From assembly GCA_030916945.1 (NCBI GenBank), contig JAUPVS010000008.1, positions 1 through 43,774 on the forward strand: a stretch of DNA of 43,774 nucleotides. Reading direction: 5' to 3'. The notes below the pieces were generated by a model, which was given only the letters and a program-made list of their open reading frames with translations, had not been told where the DNA came from and ran no database searches. The translations under genes and the position numbers were made by a program. The DNA comes from Patescibacteria group bacterium (lineage in GTDB: Bacteria; Patescibacteriota; Saccharimonadia; Saccharimonadales; JAUPVS01). Below, piece after piece: positions 8,065 through 35,847 of this stretch (position 1 is its first letter; the number at the start of each line of letters is the position of its first letter).

Positions 8065-8100
8065 TTGACAAACTCGCTTTACTTTGGTAAAGTAGTTGTC
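8065..8100 (+). promoter_or_regulatory. Consensus promoter with palindromic operator of the TrpR-like gene
   Basis: TTGACA (8065-8070), a 17-bp spacer and TAAAGT (8088-8093) are followed by 7 nt and the ATG at 8101. The -10 is overlapped by the palindrome ACTTT-GGT-AAAGT (8081-8093), which also reads as CTTTAC-TTTG-GTAAAG (8077-8092). A repressor bound there would block RNA polymerase, so autoregulation by the gene product is likely. The same promoter and operator layout recurs at 9613-9648. Confidence 0.75.
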
Positions 8101-8433
8101 ATGTCAAAAGACGTATCAAAAATTTGGGAATCTGATCAGGCGCAGCAACTAGCTGAGGCCTTGGTTTCTATTGATGATGTCCAGGTTATGCAGAACTTCC
8201 TCCGTGATGCGCTTACCGAAAAAGAAATTATCGAAGTTGGTGCCCGATTGCAGGCCGCTCTCATGCTCGCAAATGGCGAAACCTACACCGCCATTACCAG
8301 ACAAACTAAACTCAGTAGCCGAACTGTGGCCCGCATTAGCGACTGGCTCAAAGATGGTTGCAACGGCTACCAGGCCGTCATCACGTCAGTTAACGCTCAC
8401 CATGTACATATGCCGCCAGTTCGTGCTGACTAA
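8101..8433 (+). CDS. TrpR-like transcriptional regulator (YerC/YecD family)
   Basis: A 110-residue all-helical DNA-binding protein of the TrpR superfamily. The segment FLRDALTEKEIIEVGARLQAA-type (about residues 33-53) is the family core, followed by a helix-turn-helix at about 60-83 (ETYTAITRQTKLSSRTVARI), characteristic of the YerC/YecD branch. An upstream in-frame start would add 12 residues encoded by the promoter itself, so the ATG at 8101 is preferred. The branch has no well-established ligand; an amino acid such as tryptophan is possible but unproven. A palindrome covers its own -10, and a strong terminator follows at 8457-8481. A near-identical palindrome lies in front of the racemase gene. 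Confidence 0.85.
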   Translation: MSKDVSKIWESDQAQQLAEALVSIDDVQVMQNFLRDALTEKEIIEVGARLQAALMLANGETYTAITRQTKLSSRTVARISDWLKDGCNGYQAVITSVNAHHVHMPPVRAD

Positions 8434-17397: not shown

Positions 17398-17466
17398 ATG
17401 TCTGATGTCTTCTATTGGGTTCTGCTGATGGCCCACGGCAATCACAAGAAGTATACTGAGCTATAG
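17398..17466 (+). pseudogene. 3' fragment of the same MazG-like gene (copy B)
   Basis: The frame 17398-17466 reads SDVFYWVLLMAHGNHKK before a stop. It keeps the YWVLL helix missing from copy A but lacks everything between the MAH and the GNHKK tail of copy A (about 75 bp). The junction falls exactly on the heptamer GCCCACG, which occurs at both breakpoints in copy A (16732-16738 and 16814-16820), a typical short-homology deletion. It overlaps the end of the methyltransferase gene. Confidence 0.6.
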
Positions 17467-18780
17467 AGTATTACCAAATTTGTTTAGTCTATTAAGTTGT
17501 CCCATAAAATATCTGTCATTTTTTATTTCTTCGCTTGCATATATTTTTACAGTACTTAGTAGCTGCTCAGCTTCCAAGTCTTCGAACATTTCTGATTGTT
17601 CAGCTTTGGGATCGGGGGAGAAGCTACCCATGGGCTGCAAGCCATGTATGAATCGTGTTAATGTTGCATTTAGTGCTTCCAGACTATTATCGATACCTAC
17701 CCAACGTCGCTTTAGCTTCGACGCAACCCCTAAAGTAGTTCCCGAACCCGCAAAGCAATCTAAAACTAAATCACCAGGCTTTGATGAAGCTTCAATAATT
17801 CTTTCTAATAATTTCGGATTCTTTTCAGTCGGGTAGCCTGTTATCTTTATATTTTGATTGTGAGGGTCTTTGACGTCTAGCCAAATATCTTGGACTGGTA
17901 TCCCTAGATTAGTGTCTAAATATATCTTTCTACGAGGGTTTCCAGTAGAAGACCAATATATTTCACCCTTTTCGTCTAATTCATCTAAGGTACTTCTCTT
18001 ATACTGCCAATGCTTACCTGCAGGGGGCTTCATTCCTTTCCATTCTTTTCCTGTATCCCCATTCCGAACGCCGGGAGCATGGATAGGCACACGCTTATAT
18101 CTCCTTCCGGATTCTTTTTCTATATAAGGATACTCTCGATCTGCCTCTTCAGGTAGCCAGCTATTATATGGCCGATTCCAGGTATACTTATCAGATTTAC
18201 TGTAAAACATTATATAGTCTGCGACGTTCCCAAATTGTTTACGCGTATAGTTCTTGGGGTTACTTTTCTTTCTCACAATTATGTTTCTAAAATTCTTTCT
18301 TCCGAACACTTCATCCATTATGAGCTTAATCTCAAAGGCCATATTATCGTCTAAGTGAAGATATATTGACCCATCTTCAGAAAGAAGCTGTTTTAAGAAA
18401 ATAAGTCTTTCTCTAATAAATTCGATATAGTGCGAACCGACTAGAAGATCGCTGTAAGCATCCTTTCTATCTCGAGAAACAAAAAATTTATTAGTAGCGA
18501 ATGGGGGGTCAATATAAATAAGCTTTACCTTACCTCTGTACCTGTCTTGTTTTACTAGGGAAGCTAGAGTACTTAAATTTTCACCTAAGTACAACGCTCC
18601 TAGTTCCTCTATCTCACTATGTTTACCGCTCCACACATTACTAATCAAACTTTTTTCCGTCTTTAGTAAAATATCTTTTTCTTCTGCTTTGCCTGCATAA
18701 TTAATCGAGTACTCCAGGTCTTTAGAAGAATACTTTTTAGCATTATCGCGATAGTTTTTTTTGGTTTCTCCAGTTGCCAT
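17461..18780 (-). CDS. DNA methyltransferase, beta class (adenine-N6 or cytosine-N4)
   Basis: A 439-residue amino-methyltransferase. The catalytic motif IV is IYIDPPFATN (DPPF about 91-94) and the SAM-binding motif I is LDCFAGSGTTLG (about 341-351). Having IV before I makes it beta class, with a target-recognition region between (about 170-300). Motif X-like sequence precedes motif IV. DPPF is most often N6-adenine but does not exclude N4-cytosine. It follows the presumed restriction gene by 12 nt with an AGGTAG ribosome site, forming a two-gene cassette. Codon use is clearly AT-richer (many AAA, ATA, TTA codons) than the phe operon to its right, which suggests acquisition. Confidence 0.85.
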   Translation of the reverse strand: MATGETKKNYRDNAKKYSSKDLEYSINYAGKAEEKDILLKTEKSLISNVWSGKHSEIEELGALYLGENLSTLASLVKQDRYRGKVKLIYIDPPFATNKFFVSRDRKDAYSDLLVGSHYIEFIRERLIFLKQLLSEDGSIYLHLDDNMAFEIKLIMDEVFGRKNFRNIIVRKKSNPKNYTRKQFGNVADYIMFYSKSDKYTWNRPYNSWLPEEADREYPYIEKESGRRYKRVPIHAPGVRNGDTGKEWKGMKPPAGKHWQYKRSTLDELDEKGEIYWSSTGNPRRKIYLDTNLGIPVQDIWLDVKDPHNQNIKITGYPTEKNPKLLERIIEASSKPGDLVLDCFAGSGTTLGVASKLKRRWVGIDNSLEALNATLTRFIHGLQPMGSFSPDPKAEQSEMFEDLEAEQLLSTVKIYASEEIKNDRYFMGQLNRLNKFGNTL

Positions 18781-18792
18781 AACACTACCTAT

Positions 18793-19668
18793 TTAAGAAG
18801 TAAGCCATTCGTAGGTAAGCCTATCGGGGATCATTCGCAGAGTAGTTACCATAATTTTCTCCGGAACCGACTCTTCTAAAGTAGAGTAGTCTCTCCACAT
18901 TGAACCCAGCAACAATCCAGGACCATCATTTACAAATATTACTTTCAAATTCTTCTCTGTTTCACTTGCGTAATTAAGTATTTCTCTGGCAGCATTGTGA
19001 TATCCGCCCGTTCTGTCGTCTTCCTGAGCACCACCCCTGTCTCCATCGTAACGTGCAAGTCCGATTGCTAAAGGAGTCACTTCGTCCGTATCATAAATTA
19101 TAAAGTCAACAGGTCGCTGAGGGTTTGGATAATCTTTAAATACATTAGAGAGTTTTATATCTTGCCCTGCTCTTTGAGGGCCGGTGATTCGTAGCTCAGG
19201 GAAGTATGACATAATCATTTCAAAAAATCGTTCGGTCAAATCGTAGCCCTTTGATCCTCTACTCTTGTACTCCCAAAGAAGCGCACATAACGCTTCGTCA
19301 GGCATTGGTCTAGAAATAAATGACGATTGCACCTCATTGATAGGTCTATACCCTTTTCCGAAACGCTCATTTATCTGCTTAGCAGCAGATTTCTTTTTTA
19401 ACATTTCGACTGGGGTTTCGGGGGAAACATATTTACGAAACGCACGGCATAACTGTATCCTCATCCATGGCTCGGAGACTTCACTAATCTGTAAGAATAG
19501 CCTTGTAGAAGATTCTGAAACTTTAAGAAGCTGACCGAATAACTGCAAAACAGGCTCATAGAGTAAACATGCGTCGGTTAGAATGTCGGGATAATACTCT
19601 CCAGTAGATAATGTAATCCAGTTGTGACCTTCTTCTTTGTAATCTGCAAATTTTTTAACTGAATTCAT
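18793..19668 (-). CDS. Presumed type II restriction endonuclease
   Basis: A 291-residue protein called a restriction enzyme mainly by its position as the first gene of a cassette with a solitary methyltransferase. The C-terminal half contains PVDFIIYDTDEVTPLAIGLARYDGDRGGAQEDDR, with an Asp followed at the right distance by a conserved, charged strand. That could be a PD-(D/E)xK core with an unusual last motif, but the lysine is not clear. The N-terminal half (VSPETPVEML, INERFGKGYRP) is helical and may bind DNA. Possible -10 TATGAT 8 nt before the ATG. I cannot name its recognition site. Confidence 0.55.
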   Translation of the reverse strand: MNSVKKFADYKEEGHNWITLSTGEYYPDILTDACLLYEPVLQLFGQLLKVSESSTRLFLQISEVSEPWMRIQLCRAFRKYVSPETPVEMLKKKSAAKQINERFGKGYRPINEVQSSFISRPMPDEALCALLWEYKSRGSKGYDLTERFFEMIMSYFPELRITGPQRAGQDIKLSNVFKDYPNPQRPVDFIIYDTDEVTPLAIGLARYDGDRGGAQEDDRTGGYHNAAREILNYASETEKNLKVIFVNDGPGLLLGSMWRDYSTLEESVPEKIMVTTLRMIPDRLTYEWLTS

Positions 19669-19701
19669 ATACGATCATCATAGCAAAATATATGAGATTA
19701 A

Positions 19702-20490
19702 CTAAGGCGAATCGGTGTTATTCTGTGAAACAGATATCAAGCTGCACTTCAAACCACTTTCATTAACAAGCTTATCTAGCTCTTTAAAAAGCTTTAAGAA
19801 GTTTTGTGTCGCATCATCAAAGCTACTTTTTGTAACTTCAATTGTGCTACCTACTTGCTCAGATTTCTCATGAAGTTTTACCTTTTTAGTATTACTCACG
19901 TACCTTTCGTCTATGATGCCATTATTATGGATAAGTGCATGTCTCATTTGCCAGTATTTGTGAATGGCATTCAAATAAACGCTGTCTGCCAGTTTTATAC
20001 CAAAATGTCTATTTAAAATCTCCTTTGTAGTATTAACATTCTGGAAATTTATTTTTTCAACGGGGTTTTTACTGGAATATAGCTTCTTTACCGTAAGATC
20101 GCCTAATGCCGATGACAGCTCTTCTAAAGTTTGTTTTTTGTTTCTTTTGGTAGCAAGTATCTCTTGGAGTTCCTTCGCAGAGAAGTTAACTCCTGCTGAA
20201 GTCGATATCTGAGTAAAATTTTCTTTTAGAAGACAAATAAAAATGTCTTTTAACAATGCTTCTGCAGCACCGGTCAATAGAATAAAACCTTGCGAATAAA
20301 GCTGACTGGATATTTTTTGCTGTTCATAATCAACCGAATTTTTCGCGTTTTCAAGTGCTTTAATCGTGTTTGGGTTTATTTTAAGCGTTTTTAGCGCACC
20401 CATATAGATTCCGTATAGAGTTCTATACGAATCAAATATTGAATTAATACTTTCAGTCCTTTTAGTAAAAGTCTGATCTAGACTTCTCAT
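19702..20490 (-). CDS. HEPN-domain protein, possible RNase effector
   Basis: A 262-residue helical protein. The motif MRHALIHNNGIID (about 182-194) gives R-x4-H (Arg183, His188), the catalytic signature of HEPN ribonucleases, on a helix following a paired helical region (LLTGAAEALLKDIFICLL). HEPN proteins are toxins or effectors in abortive-infection and other defence systems, but also occur as non-catalytic partners. It sits immediately upstream of the restriction cassette in the same orientation and shares its AT-rich codon use, 33 nt away. No antitoxin-like partner is obvious beside it. It starts 7 nt after the end of pheT. Confidence 0.6.
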   Translation of the reverse strand: MRSLDQTFTKRTESINSIFDSYRTLYGIYMGALKTLKINPNTIKALENAKNSVDYEQQKISSQLYSQGFILLTGAAEALLKDIFICLLKENFTQISTSAGVNFSAKELQEILATKRNKKQTLEELSSALGDLTVKKLYSSKNPVEKINFQNVNTTKEILNRHFGIKLADSVYLNAIHKYWQMRHALIHNNGIIDERYVSNTKKVKLHEKSEQVGSTIEVTKSSFDDATQNFLKLFKELDKLVNESGLKCSLISVSQNNTDSP

Positions 20491-32992: not shown

Positions 32993-34120
32993 ATGAGTGA
33001 GTTGCCGATTGCAGCCATAACAGGCCACACCGATCAAGCCATGGCGCCACGCCCCGAACTCAGCGTTATGGAACCACCGCAAACCCTGACCATGGCCGAC
33101 ATCAACCTGGCCATGCGCGAATCGTTGCAGCGAACCGCCCAGCTGTCTCCACTCGACAACCACATACCCCTATTTGACCCAAGCGTATTAGAAGAAGGCA
33201 ATCAGCGCGCCCTTGACCGCTACGGCGATGACGCCCGCCGACTCTTAATAATTGGCCCGGATGTGGTCAGTTTTGAAGGTATGCCGCCAACAATACTAGA
33301 GCGCCAATACAGCGGTAGGTTTCTAGGTGCGCTAATTGTGGTACGAGAAATGAGCCTGCTTCACGTCTATCGTGACACAGGGGACTATACCGATGAGGAT
33401 GTATCGCCACTCACAGCTCGTAAAATCCGTGATGAACTAGCCGAAAGCTTAGTTGACTGGAGCGGCCGGTCAGCAATCAGTCGATCAGGTAAGGCAAAAG
33501 GCACTAGGTCAGGCATGCCTGATGTACTCGTCATGGATATTCGCCATTCAGAAATGTATAAAGAGGCGATCAATCATATTGTCTTTGACGATGAAATACA
33601 GCGTTATATTGCCAACGGAGTAAATTTACCACAAATTAACAACGACAAAGAAGCTGGCTGGTTAATGTCAAGCATAGCCAGAGTTAATCAGGGTGACTTG
33701 TCATTAGAGGCACGACAGCGAATCGCATTTCTCAGTCTACTCCTTGTACCAGAATCAGATATGGCGTCTGGTCTAAGGGCAAATGGACTGCTAGAACAAA
33801 CCACAGAAGAACTGCGCGCCCGGAGAAACTTTATATCCAAACATTTTAGCGAGGAAGCCTGGGCCGACCAAGCACTTTGCAGCCCGACCAGCACAACTGA
33901 TATTACGACTAACGATTTCTATCAGCGACCGAACGAGCGATTGAAAGATTATAAAGCAAGAAAAAAGCAGTTAGTGGAAATGTTCTGCGCTAATTGTGTG
34001 GTCAGAGACGAATGTGCCGATTATGCCATCCGCACTCGCCAACCCGAAGGTATCTGGGGTGGCCTGGATACTGTTGAGCTGGGCGTAACAAAACGTCGCA
34101 ACGGCCGTCGGGTTGGTTAG
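32993..34120 (+). CDS. WhiB-like domain protein with long N-terminal extension
   Basis: A 375-residue protein whose last 80 residues form a WhiB-type iron-sulphur domain. Cys296 (QALCSP) and CANCVVRDEC (Cys332, Cys335, Cys341) give C-x35-C-x2-C-x5-C, followed by EGIWGGLD and a basic tail TKRRNGRR that fits the DNA-contacting end of WhiB proteins. WhiB proteins bind a 4Fe-4S cluster and act with the primary sigma factor, and are known mainly from Actinobacteria and their phages. The first 270 residues match nothing I recognise and include EGIW-free alpha/beta sequence with many acidic residues. Free WhiB proteins are only 80-130 residues, so the fusion is unusual. Confidence 0.75.
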   Translation: MSELPIAAITGHTDQAMAPRPELSVMEPPQTLTMADINLAMRESLQRTAQLSPLDNHIPLFDPSVLEEGNQRALDRYGDDARRLLIIGPDVVSFEGMPPTILERQYSGRFLGALIVVREMSLLHVYRDTGDYTDEDVSPLTARKIRDELAESLVDWSGRSAISRSGKAKGTRSGMPDVLVMDIRHSEMYKEAINHIVFDDEIQRYIANGVNLPQINNDKEAGWLMSSIARVNQGDLSLEARQRIAFLSLLLVPESDMASGLRANGLLEQTTEELRARRNFISKHFSEEAWADQALCSPTSTTDITTNDFYQRPNERLKDYKARKKQLVEMFCANCVVRDECADYAIRTRQPEGIWGGLDTVELGVTKRRNGRRVG

Positions 34121-34158: not shown

Positions 34159-35100
34159 ATGCCTGTTGCGTCAAAGCGCCCAGCCCAAACCAGCCATCGC
34201 GTCCGAACCATCCTGGCCTCGTTATGCGGTACCTTGGCAATTAGCCTGATTCTGTCGAGCTTGGTATTGGTTTGGCTCAACCGCACCCTAACCGACACAC
34301 CAACCTTTGTAAAAACGGTGGCGCCGCTATCGACTAAACCCGAAATCCAAAACTTTATTGCCCAAAAAACTAGCGAGCAACTAGTAAAGAACACTTCGGC
34401 GCAAGAGCTGGCCAATCTATTGTTGCCCAATAACCAAGTAGCCGGTCAGGCCGCCGCCCAATTGCAAGGCGAAATGCAGCCAATCATTTATAAGAACATC
34501 CTGGCAGCCGTGCAGTCGCCCCAATTTAGTACACTTTGGAAAACAACCAACCAAACCGTCCACAGCGCCCTGATTAACCAGCTCAACAGCAACTCCGAGC
34601 AAGTTACAATCGACTTTAATCCGGTGATGGCCGGCGTTGTCGAGCAACTTAAAACCACCCAGCTGGCGCCGGTGGCAGATAACATTGTTATCGAAGAAAA
34701 CGCCGCCAAAGTTAACCTGACCGACACCCGTCTTAAGCAGGCTCACGACACCTACGTCCGCTTCCACCAAGCCACCTGGCTAGTGGTGGTGGTTACCGTC
34801 TTGCTACTAGTGGCTTCGGTCTGGCTGTCGGTGCACCATGTTAAAACCTTCCGCCGCATTGCCATGGGGGCTGGACTTGGTTCGCTATTATTTAGCCTAT
34901 CGATCTATATCGCTACCCACGTCAGCCTAGGTAACACCACCGACGCCCTTACTCAAAAGGCCACCGCTAAGCTCTTAGAAACCCTGCTTCACAACCTGCA
35001 GATTTCCAGCCTGATACTGGGCATAGTTTGCGTTTCCCTAGCCATTTTAAGCAAGATTTACAGTGTAGTAACTGAAAAGAAAGCTACCCCAAAGTCTTGA
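34159..35100 (+). CDS. Integral membrane protein, unknown
   Basis: A 313-residue protein with one membrane helix near the N-terminus (about 21-42), an outer domain of roughly 165 residues, and three further helices (about 206-228, 234-258, 280-305). The outer part starts LTDTPTFVKTVAPLSTKPEIQ and is Gln/Asn/Ser-rich and helical. A similar layout occurs in actinobacterial membrane proteins of unknown function. TTTAAT lies 6 nt before the ATG, so it may be leaderless. The last 17 bases overlap the convergent yaaA gene. Confidence 0.65.
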   Translation: MPVASKRPAQTSHRVRTILASLCGTLAISLILSSLVLVWLNRTLTDTPTFVKTVAPLSTKPEIQNFIAQKTSEQLVKNTSAQELANLLLPNNQVAGQAAAQLQGEMQPIIYKNILAAVQSPQFSTLWKTTNQTVHSALINQLNSNSEQVTIDFNPVMAGVVEQLKTTQLAPVADNIVIEENAAKVNLTDTRLKQAHDTYVRFHQATWLVVVVTVLLLVASVWLSVHHVKTFRRIAMGAGLGSLLFSLSIYIATHVSLGNTTDALTQKATAKLLETLLHNLQISSLILGIVCVSLAILSKIYSVVTEKKATPKS

Positions 35101-35827
35101 TGTAGGTGGGTTGCTGCGGTGTGCTTAGCTCCGCATCGAATGCATAGTCCATGTCGTTAAACTCATTGAGGCGGTTTGGGCTGGTCAGACCTTGCTTAAC
35201 AATCCAGCGCGCAAAAGCACCACGCGCCCACTTAGCGTGAATGGCCACAAAGGTCGGTTCCTTGCCTTTGGCTATGGTTAAAAAGAGCGGGCTGATTACT
35301 CTTAACGGGTCGACAAACGGCGTTACCAGCTTGGCATATTCAACCGAAGCGACGTTCACAATCGCGCCCTGGCTGGGCAACGTCTTAGCAACTTTATCTT
35401 GCCAAAAGTCGTACAGGTTCTTAAAACCCTTTCCTTTCAGGATATACATGGCTTCTAACCGATACGGGCTAACTAGATCGAGCGGGCTAACAATGCCGTA
35501 TTGTCCCGAAAGTATGCGCAGATGATGGTCGGCAAATTTACGTTCCGGCTCAGTAAAATCTTCGGCTTTAAGACCCTTGTAGATGTCACCCACAAAGCCA
35601 TCAAGCGCCGCAATCGTACCGGGGCTTTGCCAGTTTTCGATCAGCTGATGTGTTTTGGCGGCCAGGGTTGGCGAAATATGCATTAGTTTCTGCAATTCTG
35701 CTGGTGTCTTGGTTCTTAGCAGCTGATTAAGCTCCCGGGCTTCGGCTTCTAGTGGCGGTCGCCGCGTCGGCACCGGATGGTCACTATGGCTACGCATTGT
35801 CTTGGAGGAGTTTAATAGAACAATCAT
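35084..35827 (-). CDS. yaaA: YaaA family protein (peroxide stress / DUF328)
   Basis: A 247-residue protein of the YaaA family, which in E. coli lowers free iron during peroxide stress and has a DNA-binding helix-hairpin-helix fold. The family pattern is seen in MIVLLNSSKTM at the N-terminus (E. coli: LILISPAKTL), ILSGQYGIVSPLDLVSPYRLEA in the middle, and NLYDFWQDKV. A start 12 nt further upstream is open but would place the promoter -10 inside the gene, so the ATG at 35827 is preferred. The length is normal (about 250). Confidence 0.85.
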   Translation of the reverse strand: MIVLLNSSKTMRSHSDHPVPTRRPPLEAEARELNQLLRTKTPAELQKLMHISPTLAAKTHQLIENWQSPGTIAALDGFVGDIYKGLKAEDFTEPERKFADHHLRILSGQYGIVSPLDLVSPYRLEAMYILKGKGFKNLYDFWQDKVAKTLPSQGAIVNVASVEYAKLVTPFVDPLRVISPLFLTIAKGKEPTFVAIHAKWARGAFARWIVKQGLTSPNRLNEFNDMDYAFDAELSTPQQPTYIKTLG

Positions 35828-35837
35828 GACTGTGGTC

Positions 35838-35847
35838 ATTATATACT
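35838..35847. promoter_or_regulatory. Overlapping divergent -10 hexamers (yaaA and PIG-L gene)
   Basis: TATAAT on the minus strand (35838-35843) and TATACT on the plus strand (35842-35847) overlap by two bases. The plus hexamer is exactly 6 nt before the ATG at 35854. Two polymerases cannot occupy both, so the two genes probably compete. Confidence 0.55.

Follow-up and report, generated by a model that had tools for sequence, protein, structure and literature searches.

A WhiB domain joined to a rare N-terminal domain in a Saccharibacteria genome

How does a long protein ending in a WhiB domain come to be encoded outside the Actinobacteria, and what might it do there? Wbl proteins, among them WhiB1, WhiB3, WhiB7 and S. 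venezuelae WhiB, are called exclusive to Actinobacteria, or a feature of actinomycetes only, in passages of a review (PMC6282962) and of two further papers (PMC8612146, PMC7363131). The window analysed here, a stretch of 43,774 nucleotides from a Patescibacteria group bacterium, encodes a 375-residue protein that an earlier note, made from the sequence alone, read as ending in a WhiB domain. Transfer from host to parasite or an ancient family were offered as explanations should the bacterium prove to belong to the Saccharibacteria, and a WhiB phylogeny, a profile search of the N-terminal part and a look at marker genes were proposed as checks. Known Saccharibacteria live on Actinobacteria (PMC12369343, a paper on whiB of the host Schaalia). 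No report of WhiB in Saccharibacteria was found in the full-text literature excluding preprints and most subscription papers, which is not proof of absence.

The Pfam Whib profile (PF02467) matched the C-terminal residues at E 6.9e-11 with 43 bits, where the curated cut-off is 23.6 (46.6 bits, also above the cut-off, in a whole-genome search), the PHROG WhiB family at E 1.4e-11 and WhiB1 in the PDB at E 8.8e-6. Judged by sequence comparison these matches lie far beyond chance, and they bear out the reading of the open reading frame as ending in a WhiB domain. The sequence features that mark Wbl proteins are all present: a PF02467 score above the cut-off, four cysteines and the G[V/I]WGG motif, here as GIWGG. 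The spacing had been described as standard, which is right for the last three cysteines (C-x2-C-x5-C) but not for the variable stretch behind the first one, where the gap is 35 residues compared with 27 between C9 and C37 of M. tuberculosis WhiB1 (numbering from passages of PMC6282962). An AlphaFold model built on 26 aligned rows reached a pLDDT of about 85-92 over residues 321-370 of the WhiB part, and its 14 best PDB hits in Foldseek were all WhiB proteins, from WhiB3 down to WhiB7, most of them solved with sigma-A region 4. The best hit, 8cwt_A (WhiB3 with sigma-A region 4), had a TM-score on target of 0.84, a probability of 1.00 and E 1.2e-3; no hit fell below E 0.001 and the other 24 were noise. 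By this predicted model the C-terminal domain has the WhiB fold. Compared with the Wbl family as a whole, the cysteines, GIWGG, docking aromatics and predicted fold are alike, whereas the window protein exceeds the usual small size, carries an N-terminal domain without known relatives (Table 1), has the longer first cysteine gap, lies outside the Actinobacteria and has relatives whose sigma factor lacks the H516 equivalent.

Table 1. Features of the window protein and of a sigma-WhiB fusion in a relative (positions 1-based; window coordinates unless a locus is named; stop codon included in the full gene).
Feature	Position	Strand	Basis or remark
375-aa protein: N-terminal domain without known relatives, C-terminal WhiB domain	32993..34120	+	ATG start, stop included
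N-terminal domain, residues 1-287	32993..33853	+	Homologue at E 5.7e-25; alignment
WhiB domain (PF02467), residues 290-361	33860..34075	+	Pfam, PHROG, PDB; predicted fold like WhiB3/WhiB1 structures
Trp290, equivalent of WhiB1 Trp3	33860..33862	+	Alignment; residue role from part of PMC10245118
Cys296, first of four putative [4Fe-4S] ligands	33878..33880	+	Alignment
Phe309-Tyr310, equivalents of sigma-docking WhiB1 F17-F18	33917..33922	+	Alignment; part of PMC10245118
Cys332, Cys335, Cys341 (C-x2-C-x5-C), remaining putative [4Fe-4S] ligands	33986..34015	+	Alignment
GIWGG turn, residues 353-357 (Trp355 = WhiB1 W60)	34049..34063	+	Sequence, alignment
Basic C-terminal tail TKRRNGRRVG, possible DNA contact	34088..34117	+	Sequence; phmmer aligns the tail to the WhiB1 basic tail
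Sigma70_r2-WhiB fusion, G157	L096:2769-4301; same gene L327:7769-9301	-	Weak r1.2 match too

The bacterium is a member of the Saccharibacteria, as had been supposed. The window is one contig (C22) of an 860-kb, 27-contig genome that is 94.6% complete, from a tiny bacterium that is probably parasitic. Its PheS was matched in 21/21 genomes searched, its own included, and shares 77% identity with the PheS of G102, the sole other sampled genome of the same family (kinship labels are those given by the search tool); the marker thus groups the contig with its own family and not within Actinobacteria. The same order also includes G540; one of its contigs, reverse-complemented, is identical to JAICHO010000030.1, a record titled 'Candidatus Saccharibacteria bacterium isolate GZL_FP_2_bin.7'.

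WhiB is no oddity in this class. PF02467 was found in 66 of the 195 sampled class genomes, about a third, every one above the cut-off, and four single-contig class assemblies carry it (G012, G077, G097, G111). Together with the window genome these cases depart from the restriction of Wbl proteins to Actinobacteria, which is a claim about distribution and not a molecular criterion. A sample of the phylum gave 18 genomes with a match out of 379, all of this class; in the part of the sample that is listed, which runs down by kinship, 19 more class genomes without a match precede the other classes. Among 14 control genomes the only match was in Corynebacterium glutamicum. Two WhiBs are present in the window genome, the 375-aa protein and one of 89 aa on another contig (C24). 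A pattern-based scan of about 85 thousand species genomes returned 27 loci, namely a homologue in G540 and 26 actinobacterial WhiBs. Other C-terminal WhiB fusions occur in the class (L006, L007, L008, L010, L043, L071, L093, L172, L173, L175, L177); there too WhiB lies at or near the end of a protein of 210-440 aa, and their N-terminal parts do not match that of the window protein. By eye, the N-terminal parts at L006, L093, L173, L174, L175 and L177 seem to have a short W/F...GF-D motif in common, perhaps another common domain. One genome (G078) has four WhiB genes in a row (L030, C3:61383-62854), and pairs were seen at L023, L032, L053, L055, L067 and L087.

For the N-terminal domain, residues 1-275 had no match in Pfam, PHROGs or NCBIfam, a PADLOC search with the whole protein gave none, a PDB profile search with the domain returned nothing credible (one antibody chain, E 1.8) and no paralogue of it was found in the window genome. 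A search of 392 class genomes with residues 1-287 gave two matches at E <= 0.001, in the window genome and in G540 (the latter at E 5.7e-25); a further eight, at E 0.01-0.1, were chance-like. G540 belongs to another family of the order, and its homologue (L105:1054-2127, minus strand, on the contig equal to JAICHO010000030.1) is full length, with 357 aa and 31% identity over 371 aligned positions, WhiB included. This protein likewise ends in a WhiB domain (61.3 bits), and the motifs GDDARRLLI.GPD and G..D.L..DIRH are common to the two N-terminal domains; the whole architecture is the same, but the genome context differs and the basic tail of the window protein is absent. A profile of the two N-terminal domains, run on 389 genomes from the order, found no third convincing match; G097 reached E 0.068, over 22 columns. 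In 16 genomes around G540 it found no further member. Since a homologue of the same architecture exists in G540, the joining of this domain to WhiB is real, though known from two genomes, and by sequence the N-terminal domain is a real, conserved but rare domain. The part that the earlier note had called unknown is therefore conserved, by virtue of the G540 homologue; the proposed profile search produced this one relative and nothing from Pfam, PHROGs, NCBIfam or the PDB. In the AlphaFold models the N-terminal part has a pLDDT of about 45 in the window protein and a mean of 39 in the homologue, and Foldseek with the N-terminal part of the window model returned only noise; the models hint, at low confidence, at a mixed alpha/beta domain. 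A reading of residues 237-285 as a helix-turn-helix was a guess backed by no tool and is not claimed. Beside the homologue, L112:3630-6026 (minus strand) encodes a 798-aa membrane protein in which, by eye, PAP2 phosphatase-, kinase- and flippase-like parts seem to be joined in one chain.

In relatives, WhiB has a conserved chromosomal setting. Of 86 class genomes with WhiB loci, 21 carry a polA-cluster ORF near WhiB, 16 an ORF resembling a P-loop kinase and 10 rpoD, over flanks of mostly 1.5-4 kb. Wider loci from 19 genomes chosen among these (L308-L311, L313-L327) all place WhiB between rpoD and polA, with one or two kinase-like genes on the rpoD side (19/19). This is no frequency, because these genomes were chosen for polA, kinase or rpoD already matched near WhiB; in 14 of them WhiB and polA lie on one strand with a gap of less than 120 bases. 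Kinase-like is a judgement from the P-loop; the names polA and rpoD come from the sequence, with PDB matches in addition for rpoD. The 19 genomes belong to three families (f1, f2, f7). Neither rpoD nor polA lay beside WhiB in 18 genomes not chosen for context (0/18; 20 loci) or in the second WhiB locus of G105, and the window gene, its homologue and the second WhiB of the window genome all lie outside the rpoD-polA locus as far as the contigs show. In G157 the gene between polA and rpoD encodes a 511-aa protein with Sigma70_r2 (E 1.8e-9) followed by a WhiB domain (9e-7). Adjacency to rpoD and polA and this fusion tie WhiB to the housekeeping sigma factor by genome context, and the conserved locus in 19 genomes shows that WhiB has long been resident in part of the order. 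A sigma-Wbl fusion is already known in WblP (PMC6282962), a precedent for a long Wbl fusion; the window protein shares the long fusion, but its N-terminal domain has no sigma-factor match.

The trees rest on 66-71 columns and contain many open forks. In a 198-row tree the class rows need 32 label changes, of which well-supported branches force 2; identity thresholds had reduced class rows from 110 to 109, actinobacterial rows from 51 to 37 and viral rows from 83 to 49, three PDB rows were added, domains shorter than 52 residues were left out, and the profile for extracting the domains was built from class sequences found by pattern. Actinobacterial and viral-contig rows were intermixed with class rows. 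In a 43-row tree, class rows sat with S. venezuelae WhiB (L004, L005, L188; L004 is identical to it at 52/66 positions), with WhiB1 (L017, L184, L189) and with WhiB4 (L025, L067; 98/92). An AU test rejected a single clade of 18 class rows against 25 actinobacterial rows (p-AU 8e-45), a value that refers to that choice of rows because they were hand-picked to represent types. The window domain and its homologue grouped with actinobacterial L135 at 96/70, the window domain on a long branch, and the actinobacterial rows concerned (L116-L141) were fetched by a scan with patterns including [QE][PL]EGIWGG and are biased towards the query. Because of the long branch, no known Wbl class (WhiB1, WhiB2, WhiB3, WhiB4 or WhiB7) is assigned to the window protein. 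The short second WhiB of the window genome grouped with the WhiB at the rpoD-polA locus of G102 (87/72). With class WhiBs nested in several places among actinobacterial types and one origin rejected, repeated transfer fits better than one ancient family: several entries of WhiB into the class, apparently from actinobacteria or their phages, fit the trees best, with donor and direction inferred. Of the two origins first proposed, transfer is thus favoured, in the plural, and the rpoD-WhiB-polA locus adds long residence in part of the order.

Other origins have to be set against this. Contamination or misbinning, with actinobacterial DNA in a Saccharibacteria MAG, could be suspected of a 27-contig draft carrying a gene regarded as actinobacterial, but is so improbable as to be ruled out for the window genome by the PheS kinship of the contig, the GC of the gene (0.50, close to 0.48 for the window), the recurrence of the N-terminal domain and architecture in another Saccharibacteria MAG, the single-contig genomes with WhiB and the position of WhiB beside Saccharibacteria rpoD and polA in relatives; contamination is quite plausible in some single cases elsewhere, for example for L003, which lies on a contig of 6.5 kb in a genome of 190 contigs. 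That a prophage or some other mobile element carries the window gene as cargo is also very unlikely. WhiB does occur on many viral contigs (at least 576 tblastn-confirmed stretches), but the neighbours of the window gene are chromosomal by sequence (a DAGK-like kinase, YaaA, enolase, PheS/PheT), and the full protein had no match among phages, plasmids and viral contigs, where one viral locus matched the WhiB part alone. Descent from one ancient WhiB family in the class ancestor, by vertical inheritance and fast divergence and with no transfer from host to parasite, is unlikely without being far-fetched: the neighbourhood conserved across three families, the third of class genomes with WhiB and the grouping of the short WhiB of the window genome with that of G102 all agree with it, whereas the absence of matches in the phylum sample outside the class, the nesting of class rows with three actinobacterial types, the rejection of a single clade and the presence of different WhiB types in one and the same position between rpoD and polA (L009 of G051 close to WhiB, L017 of G056 close to WhiB1) argue against it.

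A further alternative concerns function rather than origin. Passages of PMC10245118 report that WhiB1 F17, F18 and W60 (WhiB3 F31, F32 and W76) together with sigma-A H516 are needed for docking, that WhiB1 W3 matters for cluster stability and binding, and that mutation of H516 to Ala abolishes WhiB3 binding. The corresponding residues of the window protein are W290, F309, Y310 and W355, and its homologue carries the same four. All four cysteines were found in 106/110 class rows and all four aromatics in 62/110, the latter count being lowered by truncation of some class rows at the Trp; the actinobacterial rows gave 51/51 and 44/51. In RpoD of relatives (19/19 from class genomes other than the window's own) H516 aligns with Lys in 18 cases and with Arg in one, His follows as the next residue, and the proteins end in KLR-K/R-H-KD compared with KLRHPSRS in mycobacterial SigA; the assignment of H516 rests on the R515-H516 numbering in parts of PMC10245118 and PMC6282962 and on a reading of the alignment to mycobacterial SigA. 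Given the effect of the H516 mutation, docking must differ or be lost. The WhiB-like part might have left sigma altogether and serve the N-terminal domain as a redox- or disulphide-active Fe-S or zinc module, for example as the sensor of some other pathway. This, too, is considered rather unlikely: the changed RpoD residue, the divergence of the window WhiB (end branch 1.7-2.3) and the distance of its gene from rpoD speak for it, but the docking surface and GIWGG are kept in both window protein and homologue, and since the aromatics vary more in class rows this retention looks selected.

The window protein is judged, with moderate confidence, to be a WhiB-type regulator that would combine a cluster, sigma docking and an N-terminal domain for input or DNA contact, and whose WhiB part probably goes back to repeated entry of actinobacterial WhiB into the class. 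The C-terminal domain would hold a [4Fe-4S] cluster on Cys296, Cys332, Cys335 and Cys341, and W290, F309, Y310 and W355 would dock against region 4 of the housekeeping sigma factor. The basic tail, the N-terminal domain or both may touch DNA upstream of -35, or a signal may be sensed, and loss or nitrosylation of the cluster would switch the regulator. For the N-terminal domain a role in input or DNA contact is suggested; for the KRRNGRR stretch of the tail, which the homologue lacks, a DNA contact is conceivable. The WhiB domain itself would descend from WhiB genes of actinobacterial hosts or actinophages that entered the class several times and were kept. The domain, the ligand residues, the predicted fold, the taxonomy, the class-wide distribution and the homologue of the same architecture are observations.

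A bolder version of the WhiB-type regulator reading is put forward tentatively and is more doubtful than probable. According to it, Saccharibacteria repeatedly captured WhiB from host actinobacteria or actinophages and rebuilt it, by settling it beside rpoD and polA, by fusing it to sigma-70 or new domains and by changing the docking; the window protein would then be the first member of a new Wbl class that carries its own sensory domain. If true, this would give an epibiont access to the redox or NO signals that its host also reads. With Wbl proteins in roughly one in three of the Saccharibacteria sampled, frequently placed between the rpoD and polA genes, the statement that the family is confined to Actinobacteria would need revision. 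Furthermore, the class WhiBs would offer natural variants of the WhiB-sigma interface, with a partner lacking H516, and a regulator to work on in epibionts, about whose gene control little is known. They would also allow the exchange of a regulator between epibionts and the hosts presumed for them to be traced.

Several further features were noted in passing. The second gene downstream of the WhiB gene, at 35084-35839 on the opposite strand, encodes the YaaA peroxide stress protein (Pfam E 5.1e-61), and a Trp-repressor family protein is encoded at 8065-8433 on the plus strand (Pfam E 2.9e-13). A stretch of low GC, about 0.39, at 17461-20490 (minus strand) encodes an N6/N4 DNA methyltransferase (E 3.5e-137 to a PADLOC type II methyltransferase) and two further proteins, one of 291 aa without a match and one of 262 aa whose HEPN-like match is weak; the stretch is perhaps a restriction-modification island adjoining pheT. 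Among viral contigs that carry WhiB, L262, L264, L270, L271, L281-L283, L285, L286, L296, L298, L299, L301 and L303 have a G+C of 0.36-0.41, which is low for phages of most actinobacteria.
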